This document shows, piece after piece, positions 2,971 through 39,109 of a stretch of DNA of 64,000 nt (positions within the stretch are counted from its first letter, which is position 1; every line of letters begins with the position of its first letter). A program made the position numbers and the translations under genes. Source of the stretch: Flammeovirgaceae bacterium (lineage in GTDB: Bacteria; Bacteroidota; Bacteroidia; Cytophagales; Cyclobacteriaceae); assembly GCA_027487845.1 (NCBI GenBank), contig JAIYCV010000001.1, positions 1 to 64,000 on the forward strand, given 5' to 3'. The notes beneath the pieces are model-generated. The model did not search any database. It saw only the letters and a list, made by a program, of their open reading frames with translations, and was not told the DNA's origin.

Positions 2971-3552
2971 ATGGCAACTCCAACCGGGAACTTAGTAGTA
3001 GAACTGAACGTAACCGCGCCAGCCTTCCTTCTGATAGACATTTACGATAGCCAAATAGACTTAAAAGCTTACAAAGGCAAACGTGTATTTATCGGGTTTT
3101 TCAGACATGCAGGTTGCCCGTTTTGCAATCTGCGCGTGCATTCGCTGATGAAAATTCGAGAAACGCTGCTTTCCAAAAACATGGAAATGATTTTCTTTTT
3201 TGAATCTACCAAAGAGTTATTGTTGAGTAGCATTTTCCATAAGGGAATTTCGCCCGTGCCTTTAATTGCTGACCCCACTAAAACATGGTACACAATTTAC
3301 GGTATTGAGAATTCCTTACTAAAATCATCGTTTAGCCATTTAACTTCCTTTATTCAAACGGCTATCAAAGCAAAGACAAACAAACTTCCCATGTATGCAA
3401 TGGCGGGGGAGGAGTTATTCTCAACCATGCCAGCCGAATTTCTACTCGATGAAAACCAAATCATTCGCAAAATACACTACGCACAAACGCTAAATGATAG
3501 GTTGTCTCTTGACACAATCATTGCGTTTGCCGATCAAGGATTGAAAAAGTAG
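2971..3552 (+). CDS. peroxiredoxin-like (AhpC/TSA) thioredoxin-fold protein
   Basis: This 193-residue protein has the redoxin core FFRHAGCPFCNLR with a CxxC pair (Cys49, Cys52), so it resembles the peroxiredoxin-like group more than a classical 2-Cys peroxiredoxin. The C-terminal half keeps the strand AEFLLDENQIIRKIHYA that is typical of AhpC/TSA proteins. There is no signal peptide, so it is probably cytoplasmic. It would be expected to reduce peroxides or disulfides; the physiological substrate is unknown. It is 69 bp downstream of the hydrolase gene and 62 bp upstream of the transporter gene, so co-transcription is possible but not shown. Confidence 0.75.
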   Translation: MATPTGNLVVELNVTAPAFLLIDIYDSQIDLKAYKGKRVFIGFFRHAGCPFCNLRVHSLMKIRETLLSKNMEMIFFFESTKELLLSSIFHKGISPVPLIADPTKTWYTIYGIENSLLKSSFSHLTSFIQTAIKAKTNKLPMYAMAGEELFSTMPAEFLLDENQIIRKIHYAQTLNDRLSLDTIIAFADQGLKK

Positions 3553-3614
3553 GCGGTTGCCTTTGCCGTTAACTTCCTTTATTTTGCAGGGGTTATCAAT
3601 CCAGCAAAGCAACA

Positions 3615-4928: not shown

Positions 4929-4930
4929 GT

Positions 4931-5701
4931 TTACCACTTTAAATGCTTCACCGTAACTCCGTTATTGATGAGTTGTTTCAGTGAGTCGATACCAATTTTT
5001 AAATGCAAATCAACATAGTTGGTGGTGATGGCCTTATCGCTATGTTCGGTTTTAACGCCATCGGGAATCATCGGTTGATCAGAAACCAAAAGCAGCGCAC
5101 CAATAGGTATCTCGTTGTAAAATGCGGTGGAAAATAAGGTAGCGGTTTCCATGTCAACTGCCATTGCGCGAATTTTTCTCAAATACTCTTTAAAGTTCTC
5201 ATCCCATTCCCAAACCCTGCGGTTGGTGGTGTAGACCGTACCCGTCCAATAATCTTGATTGTAATCGCGTATGGTGGTTGAAATGGCTTTTTGCAGCGCG
5301 AATGAAGGGAGCGCGGGCACCTCGGCAGGGAAGTAATCATTGCTGGTACCTTCTCCTCTTATCCCTGCGATTGGAAGGATAAAATCCCCCAGGTCATTTT
5401 TTCTTTTCAGTCCACCGCATTTGCCAAGAAACAAACACGCTTCTGGTTTAATGCTGGATAGGAGATCCATTACGGTGGCGGCATTAGGGCTTCCCATCCC
5501 AAAATTTATGATGGTAATACCTTCCGCTGTCGCACTTCGCATAGCACGGTCTTGCCCCAATACTTCTACATTATGCCATTCTGCAAACTTTTTTACGTAG
5601 TTATCAAAATTGGTCAAGAGAATGTATTTGCTAAATTCCGAAAGAGGTGTGCCTGTATAACGGGGTAACCAGTTTTCTGCAATTTCTTGTTTTGTCTTCA
5701 T
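4931..5701 (-). CDS. amn: AMP nucleosidase, short form
   Basis: This enzyme cleaves AMP to adenine and ribose 5-phosphate. The 256-residue protein is the short form made of the nucleoside phosphorylase-like catalytic domain only, as is usual in Bacteroidota. Visible motifs are INFGMGSPNAATVMDLL, LFLGKCGGL, and AVDMETATLFSTAF, where the Met-Glu pair binds the ribose in this superfamily. The Asp of LLVSDQP corresponds to the base-contacting residue. It is transcribed divergently from the HsdR-N-like gene. Confidence 0.88.
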   Translation of the reverse strand: MKTKQEIAENWLPRYTGTPLSEFSKYILLTNFDNYVKKFAEWHNVEVLGQDRAMRSATAEGITIINFGMGSPNAATVMDLLSSIKPEACLFLGKCGGLKRKNDLGDFILPIAGIRGEGTSNDYFPAEVPALPSFALQKAISTTIRDYNQDYWTGTVYTTNRRVWEWDENFKEYLRKIRAMAVDMETATLFSTAFYNEIPIGALLLVSDQPMIPDGVKTEHSDKAITTNYVDLHLKIGIDSLKQLINNGVTVKHLKW

Positions 5702-5759
5702 ATAGAGTGTTGTTTATTTCGCTTTATTGGATGGTCGAGAATAATTACCAATTTTGGAG

Positions 5760-6203
5760 ATGGATAAATTGAACCTTCCACCATTTGATGCAAAGATAAA
5801 AAAGGAAGAAGGCAAACCTTGGATTTTTGATATTATCCGAAAAAAGTATATCGTACTAACGCCAGAAGAGTGGGTGAGGCAACATTTTATTCATCATTTG
5901 ATAACAGATTTTCAATACCCGCGGTCGTTGTTCAAAATTGAAAGTGGGCTTACCTTCAATACGCTTCAAAAGCGATCCGATATTGTCGTCTGCGACCGAG
6001 AGGCAAAGCCTTGGATGCTGGTAGAATGTAAATCTCCTACTATCAAGTTGAGCCAGAAGGCGTTTAATCAAATTGCCGTTTACAATATGTCTGTCGGGGC
6101 AAAGTACCTCGCGGTTACCAACGGTATGGTGCATTTCTGTTGCGAGGCACCCAAGATGGGGGAGGTAGCCAAATTTTTGAATGCGTTTCCGGTTTTTGAA
6201 TAA
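5760..6203 (+). CDS. HsdR N-terminal domain-like (type I restriction) nuclease-fold protein
   Basis: The roughly 147-residue protein corresponds to the isolated N-terminal nuclease domain of type I restriction R subunits. The PD-(D/E)XK core is visible: KRSDIVVCD followed by WMLVECKSP, with Asp, Glu and Lys in the expected order. An upstream EEWVRQHFIHHLI helix is also typical. It lacks the helicase motor and there is no hsdM or hsdS nearby, so this is a stand-alone conserved protein, common in Bacteroidota, and not a complete restriction system. A TTG at 5754 is in frame, but ATG 5760 is the natural start. Confidence 0.75.
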   Translation: MDKLNLPPFDAKIKKEEGKPWIFDIIRKKYIVLTPEEWVRQHFIHHLITDFQYPRSLFKIESGLTFNTLQKRSDIVVCDREAKPWMLVECKSPTIKLSQKAFNQIAVYNMSVGAKYLAVTNGMVHFCCEAPKMGEVAKFLNAFPVFE

Positions 6204-6206
6204 AAA

Positions 6207-6234
6207 AAGGACTGCAACTTTCACATTACAGTCC
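6207..6234 (-). terminator. intrinsic terminator of ald
   Basis: Arms 6209-6217 (GGACTGCAA) and 6226-6234 (TTACAGTCC) form a 9-bp stem with one wobble. On the minus strand it is followed by seven T. It lies about 40 bp past the ald stop, between convergent genes. Confidence 0.75.
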
Positions 6235-6276
6235 CTGAAACAAAACGAGAAAACTCTTCTGTTACGAGCAGAAGTG

Positions 6277-7392
6277 TTAGCTTAAGAACTCCTTTACATC
6301 GGTATAAGGTAGGTTGAACGAATCGGCAACCGCCTTGTAAACGACTTTGCCGCCAATCACATTCAATCCTTTTCTAAGTTCCATATTATCATTGCAGGCT
6401 TTTTTCCAGCCTTGAGAAGCAAGTTTAATAGCATACGGTAATGTTGCATTCGTCAACGCAAGTGTTGATGTATAAGGCACAGCACCTGGCATGTTGGCCA
6501 CACAATAATGAACCACATCGTCAATAATGTAGGTTGGATCTTCATGGGTGGTCGGCTTACATGTTTCTATGCATCCACCTTGGTCTACTGCTACATCTAC
6601 CAATACAGTGCCCGGTCTCATTAGCTTAAGCATGTCTTTTGTAATGAGCTTCGGTGCCTTTGCGCCTGGCACTAAAACGGCACCGATAATCAAGTCATGC
6701 GTTTTTACTAATTCACGAATGGTATATTCATTCGACACCATGGTGTGTACATTCTTCGGCATCACGTCATCTAAGTAGCGCAGTCTGTTTATGTTTACAT
6801 CGGTTATAATTACATCGGCTCCCATGCCAGCCGCAATTTTAGCAGCATTGGCACCTACCACACCGCCACCTAAAACCAACACTTTTGCGGGCATCACACC
6901 TGGAACACCTCCTAATAAAATACCACGCCCTTTAAGAGGCTTTTCTAAATATTTTGCTCCTTCTTGAATAGACATTCTGCCCGCTACTTCAGACATCGGC
7001 ACCAGCAAGGGTAGACTTCCATCAACTCGTTCTACTGTTTCATAGGCCAGGCAGACTGCGCCTGTCTTGATCATCGCGTGGGCCAATGGCTCATAGGATG
7101 CAAAGTGGAAATAGGTAAACACAAGCTGATCTTTCTTAATCAGCTTATACTCTTGCTCAATAGGTTCTTTTACCTTTATAATCATTTCGGCAACTGAGAA
7201 AATCTCTGCAGCCGTTGCTAAAATCTTTCCACCAGCCCCGATATACGACTCATCATTAAAGCCACTTCCTTCTCCTGCCATTGTTTGCACATATACGGTG
7301 TGGCCTCTTTTTACTAACTCTTGAGTTCCTGCCGGAGTAAGTGCTACTCTGTTCTCATTGTTCTTGATTTCTTTCGGAATGCCAACAATCAT
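6277..7392 (-). CDS. ald: alanine dehydrogenase
   Basis: Catalyses the NAD-dependent interconversion of L-alanine with pyruvate and ammonia. Starting at ATG 7392 (MIVGIPKEIKNNENRVALTP) the protein is 371 residues, the usual family length. The NAD-binding Rossmann region is VLVLGGGVVGANAAKIAAGMGADV, and the N-terminal substrate region includes MIIKVKEP. The frame stays open upstream to 7599, but those 69 residues have no family resemblance, so the ATG is chosen. A TATCTTTG box just upstream supports this. A terminator follows the gene. Confidence 0.92.
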   Translation of the reverse strand: MIVGIPKEIKNNENRVALTPAGTQELVKRGHTVYVQTMAGEGSGFNDESYIGAGGKILATAAEIFSVAEMIIKVKEPIEQEYKLIKKDQLVFTYFHFASYEPLAHAMIKTGAVCLAYETVERVDGSLPLLVPMSEVAGRMSIQEGAKYLEKPLKGRGILLGGVPGVMPAKVLVLGGGVVGANAAKIAAGMGADVIITDVNINRLRYLDDVMPKNVHTMVSNEYTIRELVKTHDLIIGAVLVPGAKAPKLITKDMLKLMRPGTVLVDVAVDQGGCIETCKPTTHEDPTYIIDDVVHYCVANMPGAVPYTSTLALTNATLPYAIKLASQGWKKACNDNMELRKGLNVIGGKVVYKAVADSFNLPYTDVKEFLS

Positions 7393-7423
7393 TGAAAATG
7401 TTTTTATTAATGTTATAGGTTTG

Positions 7424-7431
7424 CAAAGATA
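7424..7431 (-). promoter_or_regulatory. -7 box of ald promoter
   Basis: On the minus strand this reads TATCTTTG, a match to the Bacteroidota -7 consensus TAnnTTTG, 31 bp before the ald ATG. No clear -33 TTG is seen at the expected spacing. Confidence 0.45.
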
Positions 7432-7642
7432 ACATTCGGTTACGATTGCGGAAGTTTTTTCAGAAGTTATCTGGATATAAATATTCTGGTGATTACCTCT
7501 CGCAACCGATTTAGATTTGTTTTTTGAGCCTTCTGGTGTATTTCTAAACAAATTTTTATGTTGTGTTTTGGAAAGCATTAGTCTGAATAATTTCGACAAT
7601 CATTTCGTTTAAAGATTTTTATTTGGCTAGTAAGATTGTTTG

Positions 7643-7673
7643 TTGAACCCTCGTTTGTTTTTCTTTATTTTTG
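7643..7673 (+). promoter_or_regulatory. Bacteroidota-type promoter of the E1 gene
   Basis: TTG at 7643-7645, 20 bp spacer, TATTTTTG at 7666-7673. This matches the -33/-7 pattern well. The -7 box covers the TTG at 7671, which rules against that codon as the translation start. Confidence 0.6.
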
Positions 7674-7691
7674 ACAAAAACCAAAAGCACA

Positions 7692-10094
7692 GTGAACGAA
7701 ACTAAATCTGTATCCATTGGCTTTTCTGAGAAGGAAATAGCAACTATCCTTTCTGATTATCGATTGGCTTGTGAAAGCAGAGAAGCCAGTTTGATAGGTC
7801 GCAAAGAGGTATTTATGGGTAAAGCAAAGTTTGGAATTTTTGGCGATGGAAAGGAAGTGGCTCAGATTACCATGGCCAAAGTTTTCCGTAACGGAGATTT
7901 TAGAGCGGGTTATTACCGCGACCAGACTTTTATGTTTGCTATTGGTGAATTGACATTGCAACAATACTTCGCCCAATTGTATGCGCATACAAGTGTGGAA
8001 GATGATCCTGCGTCCGCGGGCCGACTAATGAACGGCCATTATGCCACCCGAATGTTAGATGAAGAGGGAGCGTTTAAAAATCTGGCCCAATCTAAAAACA
8101 GCAGTGCTGATATTTCGCCTACTGCCGCACAGATGCCTCGTCTACTTGGCCTGGCATATGCATCGAAGCTGTTTCGAAACAACCCTCAACTGGGTCAATT
8201 TGAATCGTTGTCAGTTAATGGAAACGAAATCGCATTTGGCACGATCGGCAACGCGTCTACATCTGAGGGCTTGTTCTTTGAAACGATGAATGCAGCTGGC
8301 GTGCTGCAAGTGCCGATGTTTGTTTCTGTTTGGGACGATGATTATGGTATCTCTGTTCCAAAAGAATTCCACACTACGAAAGGAAGTATTTCAAAAGCGT
8401 TGGCCGGATTGAAAAGATCTATAACTGAAAAAGGGTTTGAGATTTTTGTAGTAAAAGGGTGGGATTACAAAGAACTTTGTGACTCTTACGCGGTGGCAGA
8501 AAGAATATGCAGAGATGAACACGTGCCCGTATTGTTCCATGTCGTTGAAGTAACACAGCCGCAGGGGCATTCTACTTCTGGTTCGCACGAAAGATACAAA
8601 ACAAAAGAACGACTTCAATGGGAGAGTGAATTTGATTGCAATAGAAAAATGCGGGAGTGGATGCTGAACGAAGGCATCAGCTCGGTAGACGAATTGGATG
8701 AGCTAGAAAAAGAAGCCAAAGCTACCGCTAAAGCAGCAAAGGAAGCTGCGTGGCGAGTGTTCAATGAAGATATTCAGGCAGATCAACGGATGTTGGTATC
8801 GATCTTTCATGAATTGATACCTGCTGTGCCTTTAATTGCATCAATAGAAGACACCTTAGAAAAAACGCTCAATCCACTAAGAATGGATTCGATTAAAGCG
8901 GCCAAGAAAGCGATCCGTTTTTTGAAAGAAGATAATTCCCCCGCCAAGGAAAAACTTGTTAGCTGGATAAAAAGAACTGAAGTGGAGAACTACGATCGGT
9001 TTAGTTCGCATTTGTATAGCCAATCCAGGTGGTCTGCTATAAAAGTCGAACAAATAAAACCCTCCTATTCAGCCAATTCATTCTTAGTAGATGGGCGTGA
9101 AGTTTTAAAAGCCTGCTTTGATGCGGCCTTGCTGCGCGACCCGCTGGCTTTTGCGTTGGGTGAAGATGTGGGAAAGATAGGAGATGTCAATCAAGGTTTT
9201 GCAGGTCTGCAAGAAAAATATGGCGAGTTGCGAGTTACTGACACAGGCATTCGCGAATGTACTATTGTTGGACAAGGCATTGGAGCAGCGTTAAGAGGGT
9301 TGCGGCCAATAGCTGAAATCCAATACTTAGATTACCTGTTGTATGCGCTTCAGATTTTGTCAGACGATTTAGCGAATCTCCAATATCGAACGAAAGGAGG
9401 CCAAAAGGCACCATTGATCATCCGCACGAGAGGCCACCGCTTAGAGGGAGTTTGGCACGCTGGCTCACCTATGGGTATGATTCTCCATAGCTTGCGTGGA
9501 ATATTTGTCCTCGTACCTCGCGATATGACTCAGGCGGCAGGGTTTTACAATACAATGCTACAGTCAGATGATGCTGCCCTGATTATTGAGTGTTTGAACG
9601 GTTATCGATTAAAAGAAAAACTGCCCGACAATATTGGAGAATTTACGGTGCCACTAGGTATACCCGAGATGCTGAGAGAAGGTTCAGACGTAACAGTGGT
9701 TACCTATGGCTCGATGTGTAGAATTGTGATGGAAGCTGCTGAAGAATTAGAAAAGATGGGAGTATCGTGTGAAGTGATTGATGTTCAAACCTTGCTACCT
9801 TTTGACATTTATGAACTTATTGTCGAGTCCTTAAAAAAGACCAATAGGATTGTATTTGCAGATGAAGATGTGCCAGGTGGAGCTACCGCATTTATGTTGC
9901 AAAAAGTGTTGGAGGAGCAAAATGGCTATCAATATTTAGATGCTAAGCCAGTAACCATTACCGCCAAAGAGCATCGCCCTGCATATGGATCAGATGGAGA
10001 TTATTTCTCTAAACCCAATGCTGAGGAAGTGTTCGATAAGATATATCATTTAATGCATCTGTCAGATGCTAAAAAATATCCTGAACTGTACTAG
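7692..10094 (+). CDS. 2-oxoacid dehydrogenase E1, fused alpha and beta subunits
   Basis: Thiamine-diphosphate enzyme that decarboxylates a 2-oxoacid, probably a branched-chain one, and passes the acyl group to a lipoyl E2. Residues up to about 430 are the alpha part (FGTIGNASTSEGLFFETMNA covers the ThDP-Mg region). The C-terminal about 330 residues are the beta part (FALGEDVGKIGDVNQGFAGL, GIGAALRGLRPIAEIQY, then ADEDVPGG). The fusion is common in Bacteroidota. No E2 or E3 gene is next to it. The frame is open to TTG 7671, which lies in the promoter -7 box, so GTG 7692 is chosen (800 aa). The stop overlaps the stop of the convergent gene in a shared CTAG. Confidence 0.82.
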   Translation: MNETKSVSIGFSEKEIATILSDYRLACESREASLIGRKEVFMGKAKFGIFGDGKEVAQITMAKVFRNGDFRAGYYRDQTFMFAIGELTLQQYFAQLYAHTSVEDDPASAGRLMNGHYATRMLDEEGAFKNLAQSKNSSADISPTAAQMPRLLGLAYASKLFRNNPQLGQFESLSVNGNEIAFGTIGNASTSEGLFFETMNAAGVLQVPMFVSVWDDDYGISVPKEFHTTKGSISKALAGLKRSITEKGFEIFVVKGWDYKELCDSYAVAERICRDEHVPVLFHVVEVTQPQGHSTSGSHERYKTKERLQWESEFDCNRKMREWMLNEGISSVDELDELEKEAKATAKAAKEAAWRVFNEDIQADQRMLVSIFHELIPAVPLIASIEDTLEKTLNPLRMDSIKAAKKAIRFLKEDNSPAKEKLVSWIKRTEVENYDRFSSHLYSQSRWSAIKVEQIKPSYSANSFLVDGREVLKACFDAALLRDPLAFALGEDVGKIGDVNQGFAGLQEKYGELRVTDTGIRECTIVGQGIGAALRGLRPIAEIQYLDYLLYALQILSDDLANLQYRTKGGQKAPLIIRTRGHRLEGVWHAGSPMGMILHSLRGIFVLVPRDMTQAAGFYNTMLQSDDAALIIECLNGYRLKEKLPDNIGEFTVPLGIPEMLREGSDVTVVTYGSMCRIVMEAAEELEKMGVSCEVIDVQTLLPFDIYELIVESLKKTNRIVFADEDVPGGATAFMLQKVLEEQNGYQYLDAKPVTITAKEHRPAYGSDGDYFSKPNAEEVFDKIYHLMHLSDAKKYPELY

Positions 10095-10873
10095 TTACAA
10101 GTAATCGATTGGATGGTAAATTCTGGCGATTCTAGTTCGTTGCTTTTATTCAAGCTTCGGTCGGTAATTCTGATTTTTAGCTTCAGTGTTTTTATGCTGA
10201 ATATGAGTTTGTAGCCAAGCCCCACCAAATTATAGGTCAGAACGCCTTCTAAAGGCGATTTAACAGTCATGTCATTTGATAAAATTGGAAACCTACCATT
10301 GTACTCCGCAGGCACACAATTTGGATAAGACAGAAATTTATTCCAGTCAAATTTTGTAAATGAACCATCAAAGTTTTTCGTAAGAAAGTCAACCTGAATA
10401 TTATAATGTGTTGGGTTATAAATCCTATAAAGAGTGTCTAGCACCTTCGGACTGGTCGTATTGCCATCTGTTATCACTTCCCACTTAGTGCAACTAAACG
10501 GAGGCACAAAACTAGGGAGGGTATCGTAAAGCGGATTCAATCTTTTATCTTGGTAATTTAACATGGAGGTCTTTAAATACTTTGTTAGTTTGACTAAACT
10601 ACCATTTGGTTGTTTTTGAAAGTAGAATTTCTCATTAAAAGGCGCTTCAGAATCATCTGGATTAGAAGCACTTAACCCTAGGTCTCCATCGCCATCCCTG
10701 AACTTCAGTGAAAGTACGAGCGTATCGGCATCGCCTTCATTTTTCGAATCGCGAAAGCAAAAAGAAGAGAATTCGATAGATGGAGTAACGGAATAGACTG
10801 GCGCTTTGTCAAAGCAGGAGGTTGCAAAAAAACTTGCCAGTATCGGTAACAGTGCACACCATTTAAGTCTCAT
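10091..10873 (-). CDS. hypothetical lipoprotein
   Basis: From ATG 10873 the 260-residue protein starts MRLKWCALLPILASFFATSC, a lipoprotein signal with the lipid Cys at residue 20. The mature part contains the phrase FRDGDGDLGLS, frequent in Bacteroidota outer-surface lipoproteins, and seems all-beta. No catalytic motif is visible and no function is assigned. A longer frame back to 10948 would remove the signal peptide from the N-terminus and overlap the divergent gene, so the internal ATG is preferred. Confidence 0.65.
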   Translation of the reverse strand: MRLKWCALLPILASFFATSCFDKAPVYSVTPSIEFSSFCFRDSKNEGDADTLVLSLKFRDGDGDLGLSASNPDDSEAPFNEKFYFQKQPNGSLVKLTKYLKTSMLNYQDKRLNPLYDTLPSFVPPFSCTKWEVITDGNTTSPKVLDTLYRIYNPTHYNIQVDFLTKNFDGSFTKFDWNKFLSYPNCVPAEYNGRFPILSNDMTVKSPLEGVLTYNLVGLGYKLIFSIKTLKLKIRITDRSLNKSNELESPEFTIQSITCN

Positions 10874-10910
10874 TTGCCTAACTTTATCGTTCGGAAAGTT
10901 ACTCAACACA

Positions 10911-11897
10911 TTGGATAGAATAACCTGGTTTAAAGAAAATTTGTACAAAGTAAACGCTAAAAACTTTGATACTATTGCGTTGGCACTTTTTAAAATTCAA
11001 GCAGAACAAAATGCCGTTTATCGCAGCTACCTCCTGCAAAAAAGAGTTTCGGCAAGTTCGATAGATAAAATAGACGCTATTCCTTTCCTTCCGATCTCGT
11101 TTTTTAAATCGCACGCCATAAAAACAGGCGAATGGGAGCCTGAAACGGTCTTTTCCAGCAGTGGTACAACCGGAGCAGCAACCAGCCAACATTTAGTAAA
11201 GGATCTTTCTTTCTACTTAAACCACGCGGAGGCTATTTTTAAAAGCTATTACGGAGAGCTCGATCAGTATCATTTTCTTGCGTTGCTTCCATCTTATATT
11301 GAGCGGGGAGGCTCCTCTTTGGTGGCAATGGCCGATCACTTTATCAAAAAGAGTAGGTCGCCCCATTCTGGCTTTTACCTTCACAATTACTCGGATCTGG
11401 TGGATACTATTAACAAACTGAAAAATGATAGCAAAAGGGTGATTTTGATGGGTGTAACATTTGCGTTGCTCGAATTAGCCGAAAACTACCCTGTGGATCT
11501 AAAAAATTGTGTTGTAATGGAAACTGGAGGAATGAAGGGGCGGAGAAAGGAAATCACTCGGGGAGAACTACATTCCATTTTAAAAAACCAGCTAAACATT
11601 GAAAAAGTAGCTTCAGAATATGGAATGACAGAACTTTTGTCTCAAGCTTATGCCGATGCTGATGGTTACTACACTGCGCCATCAAGTATGAAGATGTTGA
11701 TCAGAAACGTGTATGATCCTTACCAGCTAGAGGAAATTGGAAGAATAGGCGTGATTAAAGTTATTGATTTAGCGAACATTGATACCTGTGCTTTTATTGA
11801 GACACAAGACTTGGGGAGATTAAATAAGAATGCCAGTTTTGAGGTGCTAGGCCGGCTTGATAATAGCGAAAGCAGGGGATGTAACCTGATGATGTAA
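10911..11897 (+). CDS. LuxE-like acyl-protein synthetase / acyltransferase
   Basis: The protein resembles the LuxE family, an ATP-dependent acyl-activating enzyme related to adenylate-forming ligases. The signature is VFSSSGTTGAATSQHLV, the nucleotide-binding loop. Further family-like segments are VVMETGGMKGRRKEITRGEL and ASEYGMTELLSQAYA. In luminous bacteria LuxE activates fatty acids, but no other lux genes are present; Bacteroidota members usually stand alone and their substrate is unknown. No ATG is available near the N-terminus. TTG 10911 gives 328 residues, the usual length, and leaves 37 bp to the divergent gene; this start is inferred. Confidence 0.7.
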   Translation: MDRITWFKENLYKVNAKNFDTIALALFKIQAEQNAVYRSYLLQKRVSASSIDKIDAIPFLPISFFKSHAIKTGEWEPETVFSSSGTTGAATSQHLVKDLSFYLNHAEAIFKSYYGELDQYHFLALLPSYIERGGSSLVAMADHFIKKSRSPHSGFYLHNYSDLVDTINKLKNDSKRVILMGVTFALLELAENYPVDLKNCVVMETGGMKGRRKEITRGELHSILKNQLNIEKVASEYGMTELLSQAYADADGYYTAPSSMKMLIRNVYDPYQLEEIGRIGVIKVIDLANIDTCAFIETQDLGRLNKNASFEVLGRLDNSESRGCNLMM

Positions 11898-11916
11898 GAA
11901 TTCTTTGTTGTTTACA

Positions 11917-11947
11917 TTTGTTGACTATTGAAAGATTGATAAATTTG
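11917..11947 (+). promoter_or_regulatory. promoter of the 40-residue lipoprotein gene
   Basis: TTTG at 11917-11920, 19 bp spacer, TAAATTTG at 11940-11947; the ATG follows 20 bp later. Very good match to the Bacteroidota -33/-7 pattern. Confidence 0.65.
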
Positions 11948-11967
11948 TTAATTATAAAACCACTCAT

Positions 11968-12090
11968 ATGAAAAAAGTTTTGTTATTCGTTGTGTTAGTT
12001 GCCTTTATTTCCGCTTGCAGTAGTGCTTATACATGCCCAACTTACAGCAAAAAAGAAGTAAAAAAGACGGAATCTCTTAAGAGAATTTAG
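11968..12090 (+). CDS. small lipoprotein, 40 aa
   Basis: A short gene with the start MKKVLLFVVLVAFISAC, a full lipoprotein signal with the lipid Cys at residue 17. The mature part is only 24 residues and contains YTCPTYSKKEVKK. Small lipoproteins with a Tyr-Thr-Cys-Pro-Thr-Tyr core occur in Bacteroidota, to my knowledge without known function. A strong own promoter lies just upstream, which supports a real gene. The stop is 2 bp from the stop of the convergent response regulator gene. Confidence 0.7.
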   Translation: MKKVLLFVVLVAFISACSSAYTCPTYSKKEVKKTESLKRI

Positions 12091-12092
12091 GG

Positions 12093-13253
12093 TCAAAGGT
12101 ATTTTTCAACATCTTCGGGTTCTATTGTAGATTCGCTCATAATTACGAGGCGCTCTATTACATTTCTTAGTTCACGGATATTGCCTGTCCAATTGTATTT
12201 TTGAAGCTTTTGTAGGGCTTTATCTGTAATGTATTTCTTTTTGTTGCCCTGATTTTCGGCAATGTCGTTAAGAAATTTTTCAACCAGATTGGGAATATCC
12301 TCCGGCCGGTCGTTCAATGAAGGAACTTTTATAACAATTACTGAAAGGCGATGGTAGAGGTCTTCGCGAAATCGATTTTCTGAAATTTCTTTTTTTAAGT
12401 CTTTATTGGTTGCTGCCAAAACCCGAACATTTACTTGAAGATCTTTATCGCCACCAACGCGGCTCACGCGATTTTCCTGCAACGCACGCAATACTTTGGC
12501 TTGGGCACTCAAACTCATATCGCCAATTTCATCTAAAAAGAGAGTGCCTCCGTTTGCCTGCTCAAATTTGCCGAGTCGCTGTTTAATGGCCGAAGTGAAG
12601 GCTCCTTTCTCATGCCCAAAAAGCTCGCTTTCAATCAGCTCTGATGGTATGGCCGCACAATTGACCTCCACAAAAGCTTCAATAGACCGATTACTTTTGT
12701 CATGTAACCACCTGGCCACCAATTCTTTTCCTGATCCATTTGGACCAGTTATCAAAACGCGCGCATCGGTTGGCGCAACTTTTTCAATCATTTCCTTTAT
12801 CTCACTAAGTGCTTTTGATTGACCTACCATTTCAAACTTTTGGGAGACTTTCTTTTTTAAAAGTCTAGTTTCCTTTACTAATAGATCGGACTTCAATGCA
12901 TTTCTTAGGGTGATAAGAAGACGATTTAAATCAGGTGGTTTTTGAAGAAAATCAAATGCACCAATCTTGGTGGCTTGCACGGCCATTTCAATTGATCCAT
13001 GAGCGGAGAGCATAATAAAGGTCGTGTTTATTTCCTTTTCTCTTGCCTTCTTCAACACTTCCATGCCGTCCATTTTGGGCATTTTTATGTCGCAAAAAGC
13101 CAAATCGAAATGTTCGGATTCCAGTTTTGACAATCCTTCAAGCCCGTCCTTTGCTTCGTCTACTTCCAGATTGAGCTCTTTTTGATCGTTCAAAATGTCT
13201 TTCAAAACCGCTCTTATGCTGGGTTCGTCCTCAATAATCAATACTTTTGGCAT
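12093..13253 (-). CDS. sigma-54-dependent response regulator lacking a DNA-binding domain
   Basis: The N-terminal receiver domain has the phospho-acceptor Asp55 (LAFCDIKMPKMDG) and the conserved Lys105 (DFLQKPPD). It is followed by an AAA+ domain with Walker A ITGPNGSGKE, the sigma-54 contact loop GAFTSA and Walker B GGTLFLDEIGD. The protein ends at residue 386 directly after the AAA+ lid (MSESTIEPEDVEKYL), without the Fis-type HTH that NtrC-family regulators normally carry. It would therefore act on RpoN without specific DNA binding, or through a partner. No histidine kinase gene is adjacent. Confidence 0.88.
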   Translation of the reverse strand: MPKVLIIEDEPSIRAVLKDILNDQKELNLEVDEAKDGLEGLSKLESEHFDLAFCDIKMPKMDGMEVLKKAREKEINTTFIMLSAHGSIEMAVQATKIGAFDFLQKPPDLNRLLITLRNALKSDLLVKETRLLKKKVSQKFEMVGQSKALSEIKEMIEKVAPTDARVLITGPNGSGKELVARWLHDKSNRSIEAFVEVNCAAIPSELIESELFGHEKGAFTSAIKQRLGKFEQANGGTLFLDEIGDMSLSAQAKVLRALQENRVSRVGGDKDLQVNVRVLAATNKDLKKEISENRFREDLYHRLSVIVIKVPSLNDRPEDIPNLVEKFLNDIAENQGNKKKYITDKALQKLQKYNWTGNIRELRNVIERLVIMSESTIEPEDVEKYL

Positions 13254-13335
13254 GGTTGGAATGGGGATTTTTTGATTTCGGATAGGTAAGAATTTAATCT
13301 TGACGCTAAAATCATACTTCTAAAATAATTAAAAA

Positions 13336-13713
13336 ATGCAAGCCTGTAAGCCGGGTTCTGTGGACTCTTATCATTTATCTGGATGTCGCTTCGCAACGAC
13401 ATTCTAGCAGCCTACCCGCCCTGATACCCGATTGAACGGATAAAAACGAGCCGTTTATTTTATCAGAGCCTATTTGGCCTTACAACTCGTAAGGTTTGCC
13501 ATGCCCTCCATGTCACCATGCAGGCGGTGGGCTTTTACCCCACCTTTTCACCTTTTCCCAAAGCGAGCAACTCGGTTCGGGTAGTTTTTTTTCTGTGGCA
13601 CTTTCTGTTGCTAGCGTTGCCGCCAGCACCTTCTTGTTAAGAAGTACGATGCTCTATGTTGCCCGGACTTTCCTCCCTAGCAAACGAGTGCTAGAGCGAT
13701 AAGACAGCTTGCA
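13336..13713 (-). ncRNA. rnpB: RNase P RNA, bacterial class A
   Basis: The catalytic RNA that matures tRNA 5' ends. Read on the minus strand it begins near GCAAGCTGTCTTATCGCTC and contains the universal GAGGAAAGTCCGGGC core (complement near 13663-13678). It ends with the matching 3' piece ACAGAACCCGGCTTACAGG near 13340-13360. The terminal sequences pair as in P1/P4 of class A. Ends are given to within a few bases. No protein reading across it is credible. Confidence 0.9.
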
Positions 13714-13810
13714 TTTATGTAAATTTAAGATTCAAGAATCCAAATTCAAAATTACTTTTTGAGGCCAATACGCTCCTTTCAATTTTGAATTTTTAACTTT
13801 AAATCTTGAA

Positions 13811-14284
13811 TTAATGATGGTGATGCCCTTCTGGGCCATGAACATGCCCGTGTTCAATTTCTTCGGCTGTTGCTTCCCTAACGTCCATTATTTCCACGTC
13901 AAAGTTTAGATGCACATCTGCCAATGGGTGGTTTCCATCTACGGTTACTTCATTTAGGCCGACATGGGTAATGGTAACGGTTTGGCCATTGTCGGTCTGG
14001 AATTGCATCCCCACTTCAACAGGTTGCGCACCAAACGCACTTCTAGGTACTTTTTGAATCATTTCGGCTTCTTTCGTGCCATAACCCTTTTCAGGGGATA
14101 CCTTAATATCAAACTTATCGCCCTTCACTTTTCCTTCCAGTCCTTCTTCCATTCCAGGAATAAGGTTTCCAATGCCGTGGATGTAGTGCAGCGCTTCTCT
14201 TCCTTTACTTGTATCTAAAATTTCACCTTCGTTATTGGTGAGCGTGTAGTGAATGGACGCCACTTTGTGTTTAGCAATCTGCAT
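13811..14284 (-). CDS. slyD: FKBP-type peptidyl-prolyl isomerase, SlyD-like
   Basis: Catalyses cis-trans isomerisation of X-Pro bonds and acts as a folding helper. The 157-residue protein has the FKBP halves split by an insert-in-flap domain: YTLTNNEGEILDTSKGREAL, IPGMEEGLEGKVKGD and SPEKGYGTKEAEMIQKVPRS. It ends in HVHGPEGHHHH, a short His-rich tail similar to the metal-binding tail of SlyD. No signal peptide is present, so it is cytoplasmic. A TACTTTTG -7 box lies 41-48 bp upstream. Confidence 0.88.
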   Translation of the reverse strand: MQIAKHKVASIHYTLTNNEGEILDTSKGREALHYIHGIGNLIPGMEEGLEGKVKGDKFDIKVSPEKGYGTKEAEMIQKVPRSAFGAQPVEVGMQFQTDNGQTVTITHVGLNEVTVDGNHPLADVHLNFDVEIMDVREATAEEIEHGHVHGPEGHHHH

Positions 14285-14324
14285 AGTGTTGATTTATTTT
14301 TAAGCTGATAGATTGATTGAGGGA

Positions 14325-14332
14325 CAAAAGTA
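14325..14332 (-). promoter_or_regulatory. -7 box of the slyD-like gene
   Basis: Reads TACTTTTG on the minus strand, matching TAnnTTTG; a TTG is found 22 bp further upstream, slightly longer than the usual spacer. Confidence 0.4.
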
Positions 14333-14408
14333 ACAAGGCTACTTTTAGATTTATCAATTATTGAATTGTTAATTTTCAATTGTTTCCACATATTTGCACC
14401 CCATTTAA

Positions 14409-14490
14409 GCCTAAGTGGCGGAACTGGTAGACGCGCACGACTCAAAATCGTGTATCTTCGGATGTGCCGGTTCGATTCCGGCCTTGGGTA
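14409..14490 (+). tRNA. tRNA-Leu (anticodon CAA)
   Basis: The acceptor stem is GCCTAAG paired with CTTGGGT with two wobbles. The anticodon stem CACGA/TCGTG encloses the loop CTCAAAA, so the anticodon is CAA, for codon UUG. There is a long variable region as expected for leucine, and a T-arm with GGTTCGATTCC. No CCA is encoded. A terminator follows after 7 bp. Confidence 0.95.
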
Positions 14491-14496
14491 CAAGAG

Positions 14497-14525
14497 AAGC
14501 CAGCAATATATTGCTGGCTTTTTGT
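14497..14525 (+). terminator. terminator of tRNA-Leu
   Basis: AGCCAGCAA / TTGCTGGCT form a perfect 9-bp stem with a very short AT loop, followed by TTTTTG. It is placed directly after the tRNA. Confidence 0.85.
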
Positions 14526-15608
14526 TTACCTTATTGTTTTGGCAGGTTCTAAAAAATCAATATCAATATTTAGCGGATAGCGCATCAGATAGTCGAGTGC
14601 CTCTTGCACGGTCATATTTTCAAAAAGAACTTTATAAATGTTTTCAGTAATAAGTGCTCTTACCTTATAGAAATCGGCACATTTTTTTACGATCTGAACT
14701 GTATTTACGCCTTCTGCAACTTCCTCCATATCTTCCAAAATGGAAGCCAGAATCTCTCCCTTGGCCAACCGGTTACCTACGGTAAAATTCCGACTCGTGC
14801 TACTGTTGCACGTGGCCACCAAATCTCCTATTCCTGCCAGGCCTAAAAATGCACTTGTATTGCCGCCTAGTGCTTTGCCTAAATAAACCATTTCTACCGC
14901 ACCGCGGCTAATCAAAAGCCCTTTGGCATTTTCGCCATAGCCAAGCCCGCTTAACGCTCCCGAAGCAATGGCAATAATATTTTTTAAAACGCCCGCCAGT
15001 TCAACGCCAATTAAATCGTGGTTTCCATACACTTGAAATCGATCATTTCTTAAAAGGCGTTTCCCTGTTTGGATAACCTCATTAAAAGGGCTTGCGATAA
15101 CTGTTGCAGCAGGTTGATGTTGTGCCAGTTCCTTCGCTAAATTTGGTCCGGCTAAACAGCCGATGCGAACTACTACACTTTCTTCGCGAATCACTTCACT
15201 CATCGTCTTGACTTGTTTCCGGCTCAGCGTTCTAACCGATTGGATGGTTTTTCCTTTAGGCAGGCTTACATCAAACCCTTTGGTGCCATGAATTAAAATA
15301 TGGTAGGGATGGAGATAAGGGGAGAGCTCTTTCATCATCGCTCTAAAGTTGGAAGAGGGTACAATCGGAAAAATAATATCGCAATGACTTGCTATCTGAC
15401 TTAGATTATTGGTAGCAACAATATTAGGATGCATTTGCTGGCCAAGATGTACGCGATTCTCTGTAATAGTTCTTACCACCTCTTCGTTGCGCGCATAGAG
15501 TAAAACGCTGCCCTGTTGTGCTAACATATTGGCAATGATAGAACCAAAGTTACCTGCCCCGATTACTCCTATTGGCTTGTCAGATGAATTTTTCAAGTTC
15601 GTAACCAA
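14526..15608 (-). CDS. gpsA: glycerol-3-phosphate dehydrogenase [NAD(P)+]
   Basis: Makes sn-glycerol 3-phosphate from dihydroxyacetone phosphate, the backbone for phospholipids. The 360-residue protein has the nucleotide-binding start IGVIGAGNFGS and the catalytic-lysine region VELAGVLKNIIAIASGALSGLGYGENAKGLL. LAGIGDLVATCNSSTSRN is the substrate-binding signature. The first 28 codons overlap the end of the upstream acyltransferase gene in another frame, so translation of the two is probably coupled: one makes glycerol 3-phosphate, the other would use it or its acylated form. Confidence 0.93.
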   Translation of the reverse strand: MVTNLKNSSDKPIGVIGAGNFGSIIANMLAQQGSVLLYARNEEVVRTITENRVHLGQQMHPNIVATNNLSQIASHCDIIFPIVPSSNFRAMMKELSPYLHPYHILIHGTKGFDVSLPKGKTIQSVRTLSRKQVKTMSEVIREESVVVRIGCLAGPNLAKELAQHQPAATVIASPFNEVIQTGKRLLRNDRFQVYGNHDLIGVELAGVLKNIIAIASGALSGLGYGENAKGLLISRGAVEMVYLGKALGGNTSAFLGLAGIGDLVATCNSSTSRNFTVGNRLAKGEILASILEDMEEVAEGVNTVQIVKKCADFYKVRALITENIYKVLFENMTVQEALDYLMRYPLNIDIDFLEPAKTIR

Positions 15609-35142: not shown

Positions 35143-35600
35143 AAGCTGTTGATTCGTTGTTCGTTGTTGGTTGATCGTTCTTCGTGCACGTTATTGCGAG
35201 GAACGAAGAGATCTCTATCTCTCGGTTTACGCTAATTTAAATTCGAAGCATACGCGCGTTGGCTCGGCCGAACAGCGTGATGGTGCGTTGGGACGAGGGC
35301 AATATACTAAGGTCCAAGGCGGTATCAGCAGTCTTTGCAACAAAGGCCAGTTTCTTTTCGGATTGATCCCATATTGAGTTTGATAAGAATCGTTTATTTG
35401 CCGTTCATCTGCCGTTTATTTGCCGTTGATAAGCCGTTGTAGTTTCAGAATTGCCGGCTGGAAGGCTAATGGAAACCTAAGCTCAACTACATGCTGCTCT
35501 TATTTTCTTTTTATTTATTAGATTTGTTCGGCTCTTCGAGGTATTATCCACTTGAAAATACTGCGCTATTGACATAGTGGAAGCCGAGCTTATAAACCAG
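35143..35600. other. gene-free stretch with repeats
   Basis: Together with the next spacer this gives about 690 bp without a gene after ppc. It holds a piece resembling an interspersed palindromic element near 35190-35235 (TTGCGAGGAACGAAGAGATC), a five-copy 11-bp-period array (35389-35438), and AT-rich sequence. The ORF at 35171-35377 has no family look and is not annotated. Confidence 0.5.
35389..35438 (+). repeat. 11-bp-period direct repeats, GCCGTT-N5
   Basis: GCCGTT occurs at 35400, 35411, 35422 and 35433, exactly 11 bp apart, and a degenerate ATCGTT at 35389 continues the phase. The five bases between copies vary (CATCT, TATTT, GATAA). The spacing is close to one DNA helical turn, as in protein-binding iterons. 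Confidence 0.7.
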
Positions 35601-35831: not shown

Positions 35832-36539
35832 ATGGATGACATTCGGAGAAAGCAAATAATTGAAAACGCAAAGACATTTTTCAGAAATGAAATTGTTCAA
35901 AGTCATATAGACGGAGCTTGTAAACGAGCAAGTAAACTGTCAGAATATAATGTAAATCCATTCTTGTTTAAATATTTAGCAAACTTCTTAACGGGCAATG
36001 ACGATTCGGAAAGTATTGCGAGAGCTTTAGTCCTTCCAAGAATTTTAGGGTCTTCGATTAACACTTCGTTTGGAATGAAGATTCAAAGCCTTATAAGTTC
36101 TCTTTTTCAAGGATTAGGTTCGACAACTCAGGGGATTGACATAGAGTTTATTGATGCTACAGATGGAAGAAAAAAGTATTGCCAACTAAAAGCTGGGCCA
36201 AATACAATAAACCACGATGACGTTACTACCATAATCAATCATTTTAATGGTGTAAGAAAGCTTGCAAGAACAAACAATCTAAGTGTTGGGATAAATGATA
36301 TGATTGTGGGTGTGGTTTATGGCGAGGAAGAAGAACTTAGTTCTCATTACCGAAGGATTGGCAATACTTACCCCATAATTATTGGAAAGGATTTTTGGCA
36401 TAGGCTCACTGGAAAAGAGGACTTTTACTTTGAATTAATTGATGCTATTGGCGAGGTTGCATTAGAAGTAGATGCAAGCAAGGTTGTTGAGCAAACGATT
36501 AAGACTCTATCAAAGGAAATTGAAGAAAAATATAAGTAG
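35832..36539 (+). CDS. type II restriction endonuclease, PmeII/EcoO109I-like
   Basis: The 235-residue protein resembles the PmeII family and, from memory, EcoO109I. The shared blocks are LVLPRILGSSINTSFG, GIDIEF, YCQLKAGPNTINHDDV, IVGVVYGEEEELSSHYRR and IIGKDFWHRLTG. Asp103 and the Gln118-x-Lys120 strand would form the PD-(D/E)XK-type active site. The recognition site cannot be read; if EcoO109I-like it could be related to RGGNCCY, which is only a hint. It is convergent with the methyltransferase gene, stops 10 bp apart, so the two genes have separate promoters. Confidence 0.8.
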   Translation: MDDIRRKQIIENAKTFFRNEIVQSHIDGACKRASKLSEYNVNPFLFKYLANFLTGNDDSESIARALVLPRILGSSINTSFGMKIQSLISSLFQGLGSTTQGIDIEFIDATDGRKKYCQLKAGPNTINHDDVTTIINHFNGVRKLARTNNLSVGINDMIVGVVYGEEEELSSHYRRIGNTYPIIIGKDFWHRLTGKEDFYFELIDAIGEVALEVDASKVVEQTIKTLSKEIEEKYK

Positions 36540-36549
36540 TGTTTTACTT

Positions 36550-37782
36550 TCAGCTATTTTGTGAATAGTAGCGGTTCAAAAATTTCACTATTGAATAGCC
36601 GACTTCCGTTCCTAAATTAACAGGAACTGCGTTCCCGATTTGTTTGTACTGCTGTGCCATTGAACCCTCAAATTTCCAATCATCAGGGAAGGTTTGAATG
36701 CGGGCGTATTCACGAACAGTAAAGGGACGAGTTTCATTGGGATGACATCTTTCTGTTTGCTTTTGGGCTGGGCTGCACGTAAGCGTTAAACAAGGTTCAT
36801 CCCAACCAATTCGCCTTGCAATTCCAGTCTTTCCGCCACCTAGATAAAAGCTTCCACCCATGAATTCCTTTTGGATCTTGAGCGGCAAGTCACGCCAATA
36901 ACCCTTTTGTGGGACTAAATCTAAAACTGCTTTTTTGCTTTGTGGATACTTTGCACCAGCCGAATTCGGCACATTAGTATCAAACAATTCACCCTTCTTT
37001 AAAGCATCTTTCAAATTATAAATCTTCTTATATGGCTTCGGATATTCATATTGTGAATCAATATCTTTTCTAATACCCACCAAAATCAAGCGTTCTCTTT
37101 TTTGTGGTACTCTGTAATTTATAGCTTTCAACACTTGCACTGGAACGACATTGTAACCAATTTCATCAAGAATTGAAATCATCCCTCGTAGGGTTTTTCC
37201 ATTCTCATGACTAAGCAATCCACGAACGTTTTCTCCAATGCAGATTGGTGGATTTACTTCTTTAACAACTCTTGCAAATTCATAGAACAATGTCCCTCTG
37301 GCATCGGCAAGGCCTAGCTTTTTCCCTGCATAACTAAACGCTTGACAAGGGAAACCGCCCGTAACGACATCCACTTTATTATGGTATTCGGAAAAATCAA
37401 ACGTTTTTATATCTCCTTCCAATACCTTCCAGTTTGGACGATTTTTCCGCAATGTTTGACAAGCCCATTTATCAATCTCATTCAATGCGACACATTTCAA
37501 ACCAGCCTTTTCCATGCCGACAGCTAACCCGCCAGCACCAGCAAATAACTCCAAGACAGAGTAGTCATTATTTGGCTTTTCATAATTGGCTACTCCGATT
37601 TCAATATCGCGCTGGAAAAAATCTGCAAAAAGTGTTTCGACTTGCTCCCGTTTATAGACACGGTAGTTACTCATAGGTTCGCGGACAGCAGACAACTTGC
37701 CTTCTCTATCCCAACGTCTGAGAGTTTCTTTGCTTTTGCCTATCAATTCAGAGGCTTCTGAGAGTGTTATATATTCATTCAT
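36550..37782 (-). CDS. C5-cytosine DNA methyltransferase with N-terminal HTH domain
   Basis: Protects DNA from the neighbouring endonuclease by methylating cytosine at C5. Residues about 5-52 form a MerR/excisionase-like winged HTH (ITLSEASELIGKSKETLRRW, then YRVYKREQVETLF). The catalytic domain shows motif I ELFAGAGGLAVGMEKAG, motif IV GGFPCQAFS with nucleophile Cys146, motif VI GENVRGLL, motif VIII QKRERLILVG, and motif X QIGNAVPVNLG. All key residues are present. ATG 37782 is chosen over GTG 37788. A perfect palindrome sits 5 bp upstream, at the predicted transcription start, so the HTH may repress its own gene. Confidence 0.9.
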   Translation of the reverse strand: MNEYITLSEASELIGKSKETLRRWDREGKLSAVREPMSNYRVYKREQVETLFADFFQRDIEIGVANYEKPNNDYSVLELFAGAGGLAVGMEKAGLKCVALNEIDKWACQTLRKNRPNWKVLEGDIKTFDFSEYHNKVDVVTGGFPCQAFSYAGKKLGLADARGTLFYEFARVVKEVNPPICIGENVRGLLSHENGKTLRGMISILDEIGYNVVPVQVLKAINYRVPQKRERLILVGIRKDIDSQYEYPKPYKKIYNLKDALKKGELFDTNVPNSAGAKYPQSKKAVLDLVPQKGYWRDLPLKIQKEFMGGSFYLGGGKTGIARRIGWDEPCLTLTCSPAQKQTERCHPNETRPFTVREYARIQTFPDDWKFEGSMAQQYKQIGNAVPVNLGTEVGYSIVKFLNRYYSQNS

Positions 37783-37787
37783 AACCA

Positions 37788-37809
37788 CATTGTATAACCT
37801 TATACAATG
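37788..37809. promoter_or_regulatory. palindromic operator candidate at the methyltransferase start
   Basis: The 10-bp arms CATTGTATAA (37788-37797) and TTATACAATG (37800-37809) are perfectly complementary with a CC spacer. The site lies between the -7 box and the ATG and covers the expected transcription start. Confidence 0.7.
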
Positions 37810-38056: not shown

Positions 38057-38160
38057 GTATCGTCCTCGTTGAGTCGTTGAGAGACGATACTGGACAAGAA
38101 AGGGATTGCTTCGGTCGTGTCTCCCTCATAATGACAGAGCCAACAAAGCAATCTCTTTTT
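38057..38160. repeat. compound palindromic element
   Basis: Two perfect hairpins in a row: GTATCGTC (38057-38064) with GACGATAC (38083-38090), and GATTGCTT (38105-38112) with AAGCAATC (38146-38153), the latter followed by TCTTTTT. Its inner part (TTCGGTCGTGTCTCCCTCAT) resembles the reverse of the element near 35197, so it is probably an interspersed repeat. Confidence 0.65.
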
Positions 38161-38173
38161 CGTAAATTAAGGT

Positions 38174-38695
38174 TTATAGACCCAACAATTTTTTACAGAC
38201 ACTTAATTGCGCCCTTAACCCTTGTACTTGCACCGCTTTTTTCGTGATTTCCGTTTGTACGGATTTCCATTTTTTGAGGGATTTGCGTTGCAGTATTTCC
38301 ATTTGCAACCGGGCATCTGCCGAATTGTGGGGCAAGGTAGTGCCCGCCCATACTTTGGCCGTTTTCAAAAGCAGCACTAGTGTTTTGCTTTCCTCCGCCA
38401 AGGCGGCAAGTTCATTTTCTACTGTGGCGAGCTTGGCTTGGGTTAACCTACTCTGGCTTTTCAAATAGGTTTTTCTTTCCTGCGGTTCGGTAAAAAGATT
38501 GAAATCAGCATTTTCTGCCGAGGTAACGGCCTTTTCTAAGGCATATAAAATTTGAGCTGATTTGGCGGGCAATGGCCTCTGGCCTGCCTCCACCATGCTG
38601 AGCATTGATTTAGTGCAGCCTAGAATGGTGGCCAAGTTGGCAACACTCATCCCTATTTTTTGCCGCAATTGAAAAGGATAAACTTTGGTAGCCAT
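38174..38695 (-). CDS. XRE-like HTH protein with long coiled coil
   Basis: Residues about 8-55 form an XRE-type helix-turn-helix (LRQKIGMSVANLATILGCTK, then SMLSMVEAGQRPLP). The remaining about 115 residues are helical and predict a coiled coil (LKSQSRLTQAKLATVENELA and later KKWKSVQTEITKKAVQVQGL). The HTH should bind DNA and the coiled coil give dimers or larger assemblies. An array of TTGTGAAC/GTTCACAA dyads begins 4 bp upstream of the start codon, a natural candidate for its binding site. No partner gene of a toxin-antitoxin type lies downstream. Confidence 0.7.
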   Translation of the reverse strand: MATKVYPFQLRQKIGMSVANLATILGCTKSMLSMVEAGQRPLPAKSAQILYALEKAVTSAENADFNLFTEPQERKTYLKSQSRLTQAKLATVENELAALAEESKTLVLLLKTAKVWAGTTLPHNSADARLQMEILQRKSLKKWKSVQTEITKKAVQVQGLRAQLSVCKKLLGL

Positions 38696-38699
38696 GCGT

Positions 38700-38865
38700 T
38701 TGTGAATAAATTTGTTGTGAACAAAAAAAAGTTCACAAATAAAACGTTCACAATGTTGTGAACAAAATATCTGTGAACAAAAAAAAGGTCACAGGTAAAA
38801 TGTTCACAGGTAATTCGTTCGCAAAGTTGTGAACAAAAAAAAGTTTACAAGTAAAATGTTCACAA
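38700..38865. repeat. array of TTGTGAAC/GTTCACAA dyads, 56-bp period
   Basis: Twelve 8-bp half-sites start at 38700, 38715, 38731, 38746, 38756, 38771, 38787, 38802, 38817, 38827, 38843 and 38858; the steps are 15, 16, 15, 10, 15, 16, 15, 15, 10, 16 and 15 bp. The pattern repeats every 56 bp (units from 38715, 38771 and 38827). Each unit opens with a half-site, eight A, and the inverted half-site. In unit 2 both outer bases change together (CTGTGAAC with GGTCACAG), keeping that pair. Confidence 0.9.
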
Positions 38866-39109
38866 ACAGCAAAAAATTGCGACTTTAGGCCAATTAAAAT
38901 TGATTGTTAGCCGAAAGGCGTTGCGGCCTTTTTGCGGATTATTTTGGAAACTTGGGCAAAACAATTATTTTTAACAGGTAAAAATAGGTACTAGGAAATT
39001 GCGTAAAGCCAACAGAAAATTGGAGGTAAACGCTTGTTTTGTGGCTGGTATAAGGAAGTTAGCACCAATAATGGAGACGGCCGAGCCAATAATTGTAAAA
39101 TATTAAAAA
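38866..39109. other. spacer with GCC-GAAA-GGC hairpin
   Basis: AGGCC (38887-38891) pairs with GGCCT (38925-38929) followed by TTTT, with an inner GCCGAAAGGC tetraloop hairpin near 38910-38919. It may be a terminator or small RNA end. The rest, up to 39109, shows no gene. Confidence 0.4.

Follow-up and report, generated by a model that had tools for sequence, protein, structure and literature searches.

A repeat array as the probable private operator of an adjacent XRE and helical-hairpin gene, one of a multiplied chromosomal family

REP and REPIN sequences are palindromic repeats tied to one gene family, that of RAYT, with one repeat type per gene. The controller proteins of restriction-modification systems (C-proteins) are short and are not known to carry a helical hairpin; C.BclI, C.Esp1396I and C.Csp231I are reported to have the XRE fold and to autoregulate through tandem operators. 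KfrA of plasmid RA3 is reported to bind a repetitive operator, to exert strong autoregulation and to form a complex with the helical protein KfrC (PMC7783346). On IncU and IncP-1 plasmids, KfrA and KfrC interact with partners of the ParA/ParB type and help to maintain the plasmid (PMC7783346, PMC7821693). The gene family described here resembles KfrA/KfrC in the combination of an N-terminal DNA-binding head with long helices (here in an AlphaFold2 model), a repetitive operator and a helical protein encoded nearby, and differs in its XRE domain, its chromosomal contexts, its many paralogs per genome and its other operator sequences. By analogy, the best reading is that the module would work like KfrA/KfrC, built on an XRE domain. 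By the tests made, the protein is not a KfrA, since Pfam gives HTH_3, HTH_31 and other general HTH models, with the KfrA model not among the matches, and since neither of two family proteins, the one under study and one Hymenobacter member, has a relative in 72,556 plasmid records.

The locus lies in a 64,000-nt stretch of DNA from a Flammeovirgaceae bacterium, referred to below as the window. The operator array occupies positions 38700..38865 and consists of 12 half-sites of the form TTGTGAAC/GTTCACAA, the first at 38700-38707 (+), followed by 56-bp units that start at 38715, 38771 and 38827; neither the array nor its units are assigned a strand. Unit 1 (38715..38770) contains convergent half-sites at 38715(+) and 38731(-) around A8, a third at 38746(-) and a divergent one at 38756(+). 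Unit 2 (38771..38826), the most diverged, carries half-sites at 38771(+), 38787(-), 38802(-) and 38817(-), and the partial unit 3 (38827..38865) carries those at 38827(+), 38843(-) and 38858(-), so that the successive steps are 15, 16, 15, 10, 15, 16, 15, 15, 10, 16 and 15 bp. Six half-sites match TTGTGAAC exactly, five have one mismatch, and the one at 38787 (GGTCACAG) has two. Tandem Repeats Finder (TRF) reports the array with a period of 56 bp, 2.7 copies and a score of 175, the top of 18 rows for the window. Site listing and TRF thus bear out the twelve half-sites, steps and period described in an earlier, sequence-only reading of this DNA; the A8-spaced dyads are likewise present, as is the outer C..G pair of unit 2 (CTGTGAAC / GGTCACAG), with an additional inner mismatch in GGTCACAG. 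The densest stretch of about 170 bp, with 11 sites at no more than one mismatch, is the array itself, compared with 2 to 4 such sites in 40 first-order Markov simulations of the 64-kb window. Across the whole window 68 matches to the 8-mer were counted against 69 expected, so the excess of half-sites is local. The repeat array is genuine. A comparison with Rfam gave two miRNA models only, both far under their gathering scores.

The adjacent gene (38174..38695, minus strand) is an open reading frame for a 173-aa protein, the putative array binder, and its ATG stands 4 bp from the first half-site, the distance previously given. The protein belongs to the XRE/HTH_3 superfamily (Pfam HTH_3, E 2.7e-05; 24.5 bits against a curated cut-off of 23), and more members of the family exceed the cut-off. 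In the AlphaFold2 model (mean pLDDT 89.6) the HTH leads into two long helices (residues 71-118 and 126-171), which form a helical hairpin encoded at 38183..38485 (minus strand). The third helix of the HTH, placed at residues 29-36 (38588..38611, minus strand) by the AlphaFold2 secondary structure and the alignment, is presumably the recognition helix, by analogy with XRE repressors. At E 0.001, Foldseek finds nothing for this model or for that of the second gene product discussed below; SinR, P22 c2 and C-proteins are among the best-ranked folds for the HTH, all of them weak, with nothing specific beyond the HTH, and the family profile matches the 434 repressor at E 0.0011.

Judging from this arrangement and from the paralogs with arrays, it is rather likely that the array serves the adjacent gene as a private operator with multiple sites and forms with it a self-contained, autoregulated DNA-binding module. 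We infer that dimers of the XRE protein, held together via the helical hairpin, would occupy the half-sites, perhaps cooperatively, and that the array-bound protein would control its own transcription; gene and array would make up one module, the two being copied, moved or lost together.

Further copies are present in the same genome. The window copy lies on contig C10, and a protein search adds contigs C49 (90% identity, intact), C51 (90% identity, one in-frame stop), C37 (a truncated relic), and C39 and C33 (36-38% identity across the HTH). An additional fragment of the C39 type is found on C4, and a DNA search with the array adds a relic on C19. The stretch common to the dispersed copies, 38096..39032 (no strand assigned), has 85.8% identity to C51, while C49 has 38096-38753 and 38828-38916 in common with the window. 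The close copies on C49, C51, C37 and C19 carry 4, 8, 5 and 4 half-sites (no more than one mismatch), respectively, which indicates gain or loss of array units. The arrays of C39 and C33 are of the same style with a different word, TTGTGGCA/TGCCACAA. Dyads of the A8 type with at most one mismatch sit in this genome nowhere but beside family copies or relics (6 of 6); at two mismatches two sites are found, one of them inside an open reading frame, and at up to three mismatches the dyad and a reversed control do not differ (42 and 46 sites). Directly behind the XRE gene, at about 38100-38165, lies a palindromic dispersed repeat, GATTGCTTCGGTCGT..GCAATCTC, which is seen by eye also behind the C49 and C51 copies.

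Outside this genome the family is patchy, as shown by a nearly empty search of 58 genomes (the genome itself, G000, and 35 of its genus among them), in which matches were obtained in G000 and G017 only, the latter marginal (E 9e-4, three stops). At 1e-6, four of 395 genomes of the phylum match, namely the genome itself, one Hymenobacter and two of one other genus, and at the same threshold 58 of 120 Hymenobacter genomes have family matches, with at least 27 in one genome. In a search of named genomes, 26 of 28 loci are from Hymenobacter; the other two are short archaeal matches, probably due to chance. This bacterial gene family is apparently undescribed, and most of the tested copies own an array, often of its own sequence. 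Searches of the open-licence part of PMC returned nothing on a Hymenobacter XRE family with inverted repeats or on HTH paralogs with operator specificity, and nothing relevant on recognition-helix paralog expansion or on Hymenobacter toxin-antitoxin or mobile elements.

Next to the family genes stand ordinary genes of many kinds (Pfam tally, 25 of 105 families listed). The neighbour tallies cover 131 of 162 nearest and 120 of 148 far proteins, with proteins above 1300 aa excluded and the first 25 families considered in each table. Among the matches listed, nothing recurs beside the family apart from the second gene and plain synteny, and there is no replication or partition gene, ParA/ParM or initiator. 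These data bear on the proposal of an iteron origin or a partition site left from a plasmid, made in the sequence-only reading, or of a phage remnant. The combination of spaced repeats with an HTH and coiled-coil protein does resemble plasmid partition accessories. However, besides the plasmid result given above, the window protein has no relative in 50,697 phage records, viral contigs contain no match to it or to the family alignment A4 at the sensitivities used, and arrays adjoin each of many chromosomal paralogs; the proposal is not supported for the plasmid remnant and very improbable in any of these forms.

The presence of repeats upstream of the family genes was assessed in 170 bp upstream of 82 genes (82 distinct proteins) against 200 dinucleotide shuffles at p 0.01, the genes being a non-random draw composed of the first homologs, the loci obtained for the genomes with the highest scores, and 40 matches selected from the lists of six genomes. 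A repeat excess was found for 69 of the 82 genes. For regions 350-520 bp upstream the figure is 7 of 81, and for stretches inside the gene it is 2 of 82. Control HTH_3 genes, 30 in number and drawn from G000, G222, G713 and G733, show such an excess in 6 cases (Fisher p 5e-10), and these controls are not entirely outside the family, since 14 of the 30 weakly match its profile via the common HTH (E 5e-11 or worse). Together with the six own-genome dyads, the 69 arrays favour the multi-site operator of the neighbouring XRE gene that had been suggested from the window alone. The same reading had set homologs without any array against itself, and this point stands in part: 13 of the 82 genes fail the test, among which L056 and L069 have misplaced starts, L046, L067, L097, L100 and L107 have a dyad visible by eye, and the cluster of L064, L083 and L089 seemingly lacks an array. 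The first nine distant homologs all have upstream repeats of their own by eye, with mostly different words.

The gap between the last repeated word and the ATG has a median of 20 bp in the 69 arrays. TTGT/ACAA occurs at half or more of the sites in 32 of the 69 arrays, compared with 2 of 81 controls, and the 434 repressor operator likewise ends in ACAA/TTGT. The HTH_3 match and these half-sites constitute the likeness to XRE/lambda-repressor regulators such as the 434 repressor, SinR and the C-proteins, from which the family differs by the long hairpin behind the HTH, by arrays of up to 12 half-sites and by its lineage-specific multiplication. Read by eye, the arrays of L086, L104, L106 and L111 contain near-perfect palindromes that could form hairpins; the arms measure about 30 nt, and the half-sites make up the palindrome ends.

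Half-sites vary from one paralog group to another, while recognition helix and half-site are common within clusters. Over 71 genes, operator similarity tracks the recognition helix modestly once C-terminal similarity is controlled for (partial r 0.24; p 0.0005 by permutation) and does not track helices 1-2 (partial r 0.04). Close paralogs in which both helix and half-site are altered include L045/L046/L048, L051, L053, L055 and L080 (the half-sites of the last read by eye), as well as L096 compared with L092, whose operators are GGCAACAA and GGAGACAA, respectively. Among 2108 distant pairs (C-terminal identity <35%) the correlation between helix and operator is 0.036, and their operator words may have diverged past recognition. 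Individual pairs depart from the trend in both directions: the helices of L105 and L110 agree at 9 of 10 positions, and those of L051/L053 and L053/L055 at 8 of 10, with zero operator words in common, whereas L035 and L108 have unlike helices and common operator words. A change of half-site often, and not always, accompanies a change of the recognition helix. In 93 close pairs the identity is 0.78 for the recognition helix, 0.84 for helices 1-2 and 0.69 for the coiled coil; as the recognition helix is more conserved than the coiled coil, positive selection is not claimed. For the two operator types searched genome-wide, sites away from family genes are rare; the 14 Hymenobacter genomes searched contain 14 TTGTCTCC dyads, of which 12 adjoin family copies or relics. 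The other two dyads (L288 and L292) lie between pectinesterase-like genes, seemingly at the same place in two Hymenobacter species and more than 130 kb from an XRE gene on the same contig.

Divergence of helix and half-site among the copies of one genome would prevent cross-regulation, and such insulation may be the selective reason for it. A bolder version, which we regard as possible and somewhat doubtful, is that of a selfish or structural chromosomal module in which the XRE-hairpin protein is combined with a private array and a helical partner. It would multiply to dozens of mutually insulated copies per genome, in some cases with arrays at either end of the inserted block, with the protein perhaps looping DNA between arrays and the half-sites diversifying via incompatibility between copies; if true, this incompatibility would be like that of plasmid incompatibility groups or phage immunity groups. 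Many paralogous DNA-binding proteins per genome, the majority of the tested ones with a readable operator alongside, allow protein and DNA specificity to be paired directly, and orthogonal repressors could be obtained from such a natural paralog set. The question why one genome keeps some twenty self-directed regulators also becomes testable.

The helical partner is represented by a second gene, gene2, which encodes 135-141 aa (seven examples) on the same strand, no more than 650 bp downstream of the XRE gene; in C39 and C33 it is located just upstream of the array. It stands beside the XRE gene in 42 of 89 tabulated loci (40 of 88 under a stricter rule), a count that includes four loci retrieved for their gene2 and the fragment L157. 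A search with gene2 only revealed 19 loci in 7 of 395 genomes, with the XRE gene adjacent in 15 of the 19, by a model built from XRE-linked copies and with 10 of the 19 loci seen previously; among the loci not seen before, the XRE gene is adjacent in 5 of 9. The modelled gene2 protein is a helical hairpin (pLDDT 88.9) with generic helical hairpins as Foldseek matches. The possibility that gene2 is a copy of the XRE C-terminus was rejected (hhalign probability 2%). In about half of the loci the gene2 product would probably bind the XRE protein, as KfrC does with KfrA. The earlier suggestion that the array is the DNA part of an unknown system is partly borne out by this second conserved gene. 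Searches of the window and the surrounding stretch at E 0.01 and 0.001 gave no gene2; the C49 paralog has one. Two gene2 copies in G114 (L124 and L131) have no XRE gene within 1.5 kb.

The pair could also be read as a toxin-antitoxin system, in which the XRE protein would be an autoregulating antitoxin and gene2 a small helical toxin, the private operators would act against crosstalk and the copies would be addiction elements. The two-gene layout, the patchy multi-copy spread, the private operators, the frequent absence of gene2 where the XRE gene persists, and a weak resemblance of the HTH to antitoxins, for example HipB and MqsA-family proteins, are consistent with this reading. It is nonetheless unlikely: the seven gene2 proteins match no family, toxin or other, in Pfam, NCBIfam, PHROGs and PADLOC beyond weak coiled-coil matches (best PADLOC PbeC, E 0.0007), the single one modelled has no catalytic fold, and 4 of the 19 gene2 loci lack an XRE gene within 1.5 kb, two of these being truncated fragments.

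Copying and movement of the autoregulated module raise the question of its relation to mobile elements. An lpxK gene is present in 119 of 120 Hymenobacter genomes, and a comparison of 30 loci revealed the module in the 1.5 kb directly upstream of lpxK in 2 of them and its absence in 28. In one locus of this comparison, L323, a 6.2-kb insertion relative to L324 (edges at about 1023 and 7214) contains three copies of one dyad, at 1129, 5520 and 7166, near its left edge, in its middle and near its right edge; in L325 the edges of the insertion are not at arrays. Second array matches were obtained for 17 of the 89 loci, and 6 (L153, L156, L160, L238, L255 and L266) were kept, each with its array repeated at a distance of 2-8 kb; L153, L160 and L255 form one syntenic set. 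Those of L224 and L229 were rejected as a different dispersed repeat, and nine more (L144, L146, L155, L157, L226, L235, L262, L275 and L278), some of which may be real, were left out because they were weak, stood close to a wrongly placed start, abutted the first array or seemed to be local repeats of another kind. A few arrays are found at a distance of kilobases from every family gene, so that a second target is conceivable for some copies.

Such observations could also mean that the module is a small mobile element whose arrays mark its ends and serve movement by an enzyme from elsewhere, on the model of REP sequences, which serve RAYT transposases. The lpxK presence and absence, the L323 insertion, the truncated relics and the close copies on unlinked contigs of one genome with a short common block agree with it. 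The linkage of palindromic repeats to one gene family is a likeness to REP/RAYT. Here, however, the linked gene encodes a DNA-binding protein, each array is present in few copies, and Pfam detects no recombinase or transposase domain, the Y1 type included, in the XRE proteins or gene2; with second arrays in only 6 of the 89 loci and the island edges of L325 away from arrays, this reading is quite improbable. A gene in L153 judged by eye to be a REP-associated transposase was set aside, as it has no Pfam match at 1e-5.

A last alternative to the private operator is that the XRE protein is a controller of a neighbouring restriction-modification system, as C-proteins are. In the window, an EcoO109I-like restriction endonuclease gene (plus strand, Pfam E 7.8e-36) lies beside a C5 cytosine methylase gene (minus strand) at 35832-37788, so that this copy does adjoin such genes. 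The array of L156 separates the XRE gene from a type I modification gene, and a second one follows the type I R gene; an Eco57I/TaqI-type gene stands beside the second array in L160 and in its counterparts L153 and L255, and type III-like genes occur in L323. The XRE fold, the tandem-operator autoregulation reported for C-proteins and proposed here, and the restriction systems beside some copies add to the likeness. Yet restriction homologs, sought with eight restriction-system queries, are found near 6 of 75 Hymenobacter family loci compared with 1 of 20 arbitrary regions (p 1.0), which leaves 69 of the 75 loci without one, and the nearest neighbours are varied. Encoding together with restriction-modification genes is hence not a trait of the family as a whole, and a controller role is disfavoured as a general function and very unlikely. 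A related candidate, that arrays flank defence cargo, was prompted by the type I, Eco57I-type and type III-like restriction genes that adjoin second arrays; it was dropped as a general rule, since the neighbour tallies and the same 6 of 75 against 1 of 20 show zero enrichment, and is kept for single loci.

Several details of these loci were noted. In L156 (G810), the type I M, S and R genes recognized by Pfam lie between two copies of one array (7395-15375), and in L323 the three dyad copies are placed around the type III-like restriction genes and an XRE-gene2 pair (1129-7199) in the insertion absent from L324, the match of the type III-like methylase covering the profile start alone. The C5 cytosine methylase of the window has an N-terminal MerR-type HTH. 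Between the PEP carboxylase and restriction genes of the window, a 22-bp tandem repeat is located at 35391-35438, with a sequence unrelated to that of the array.
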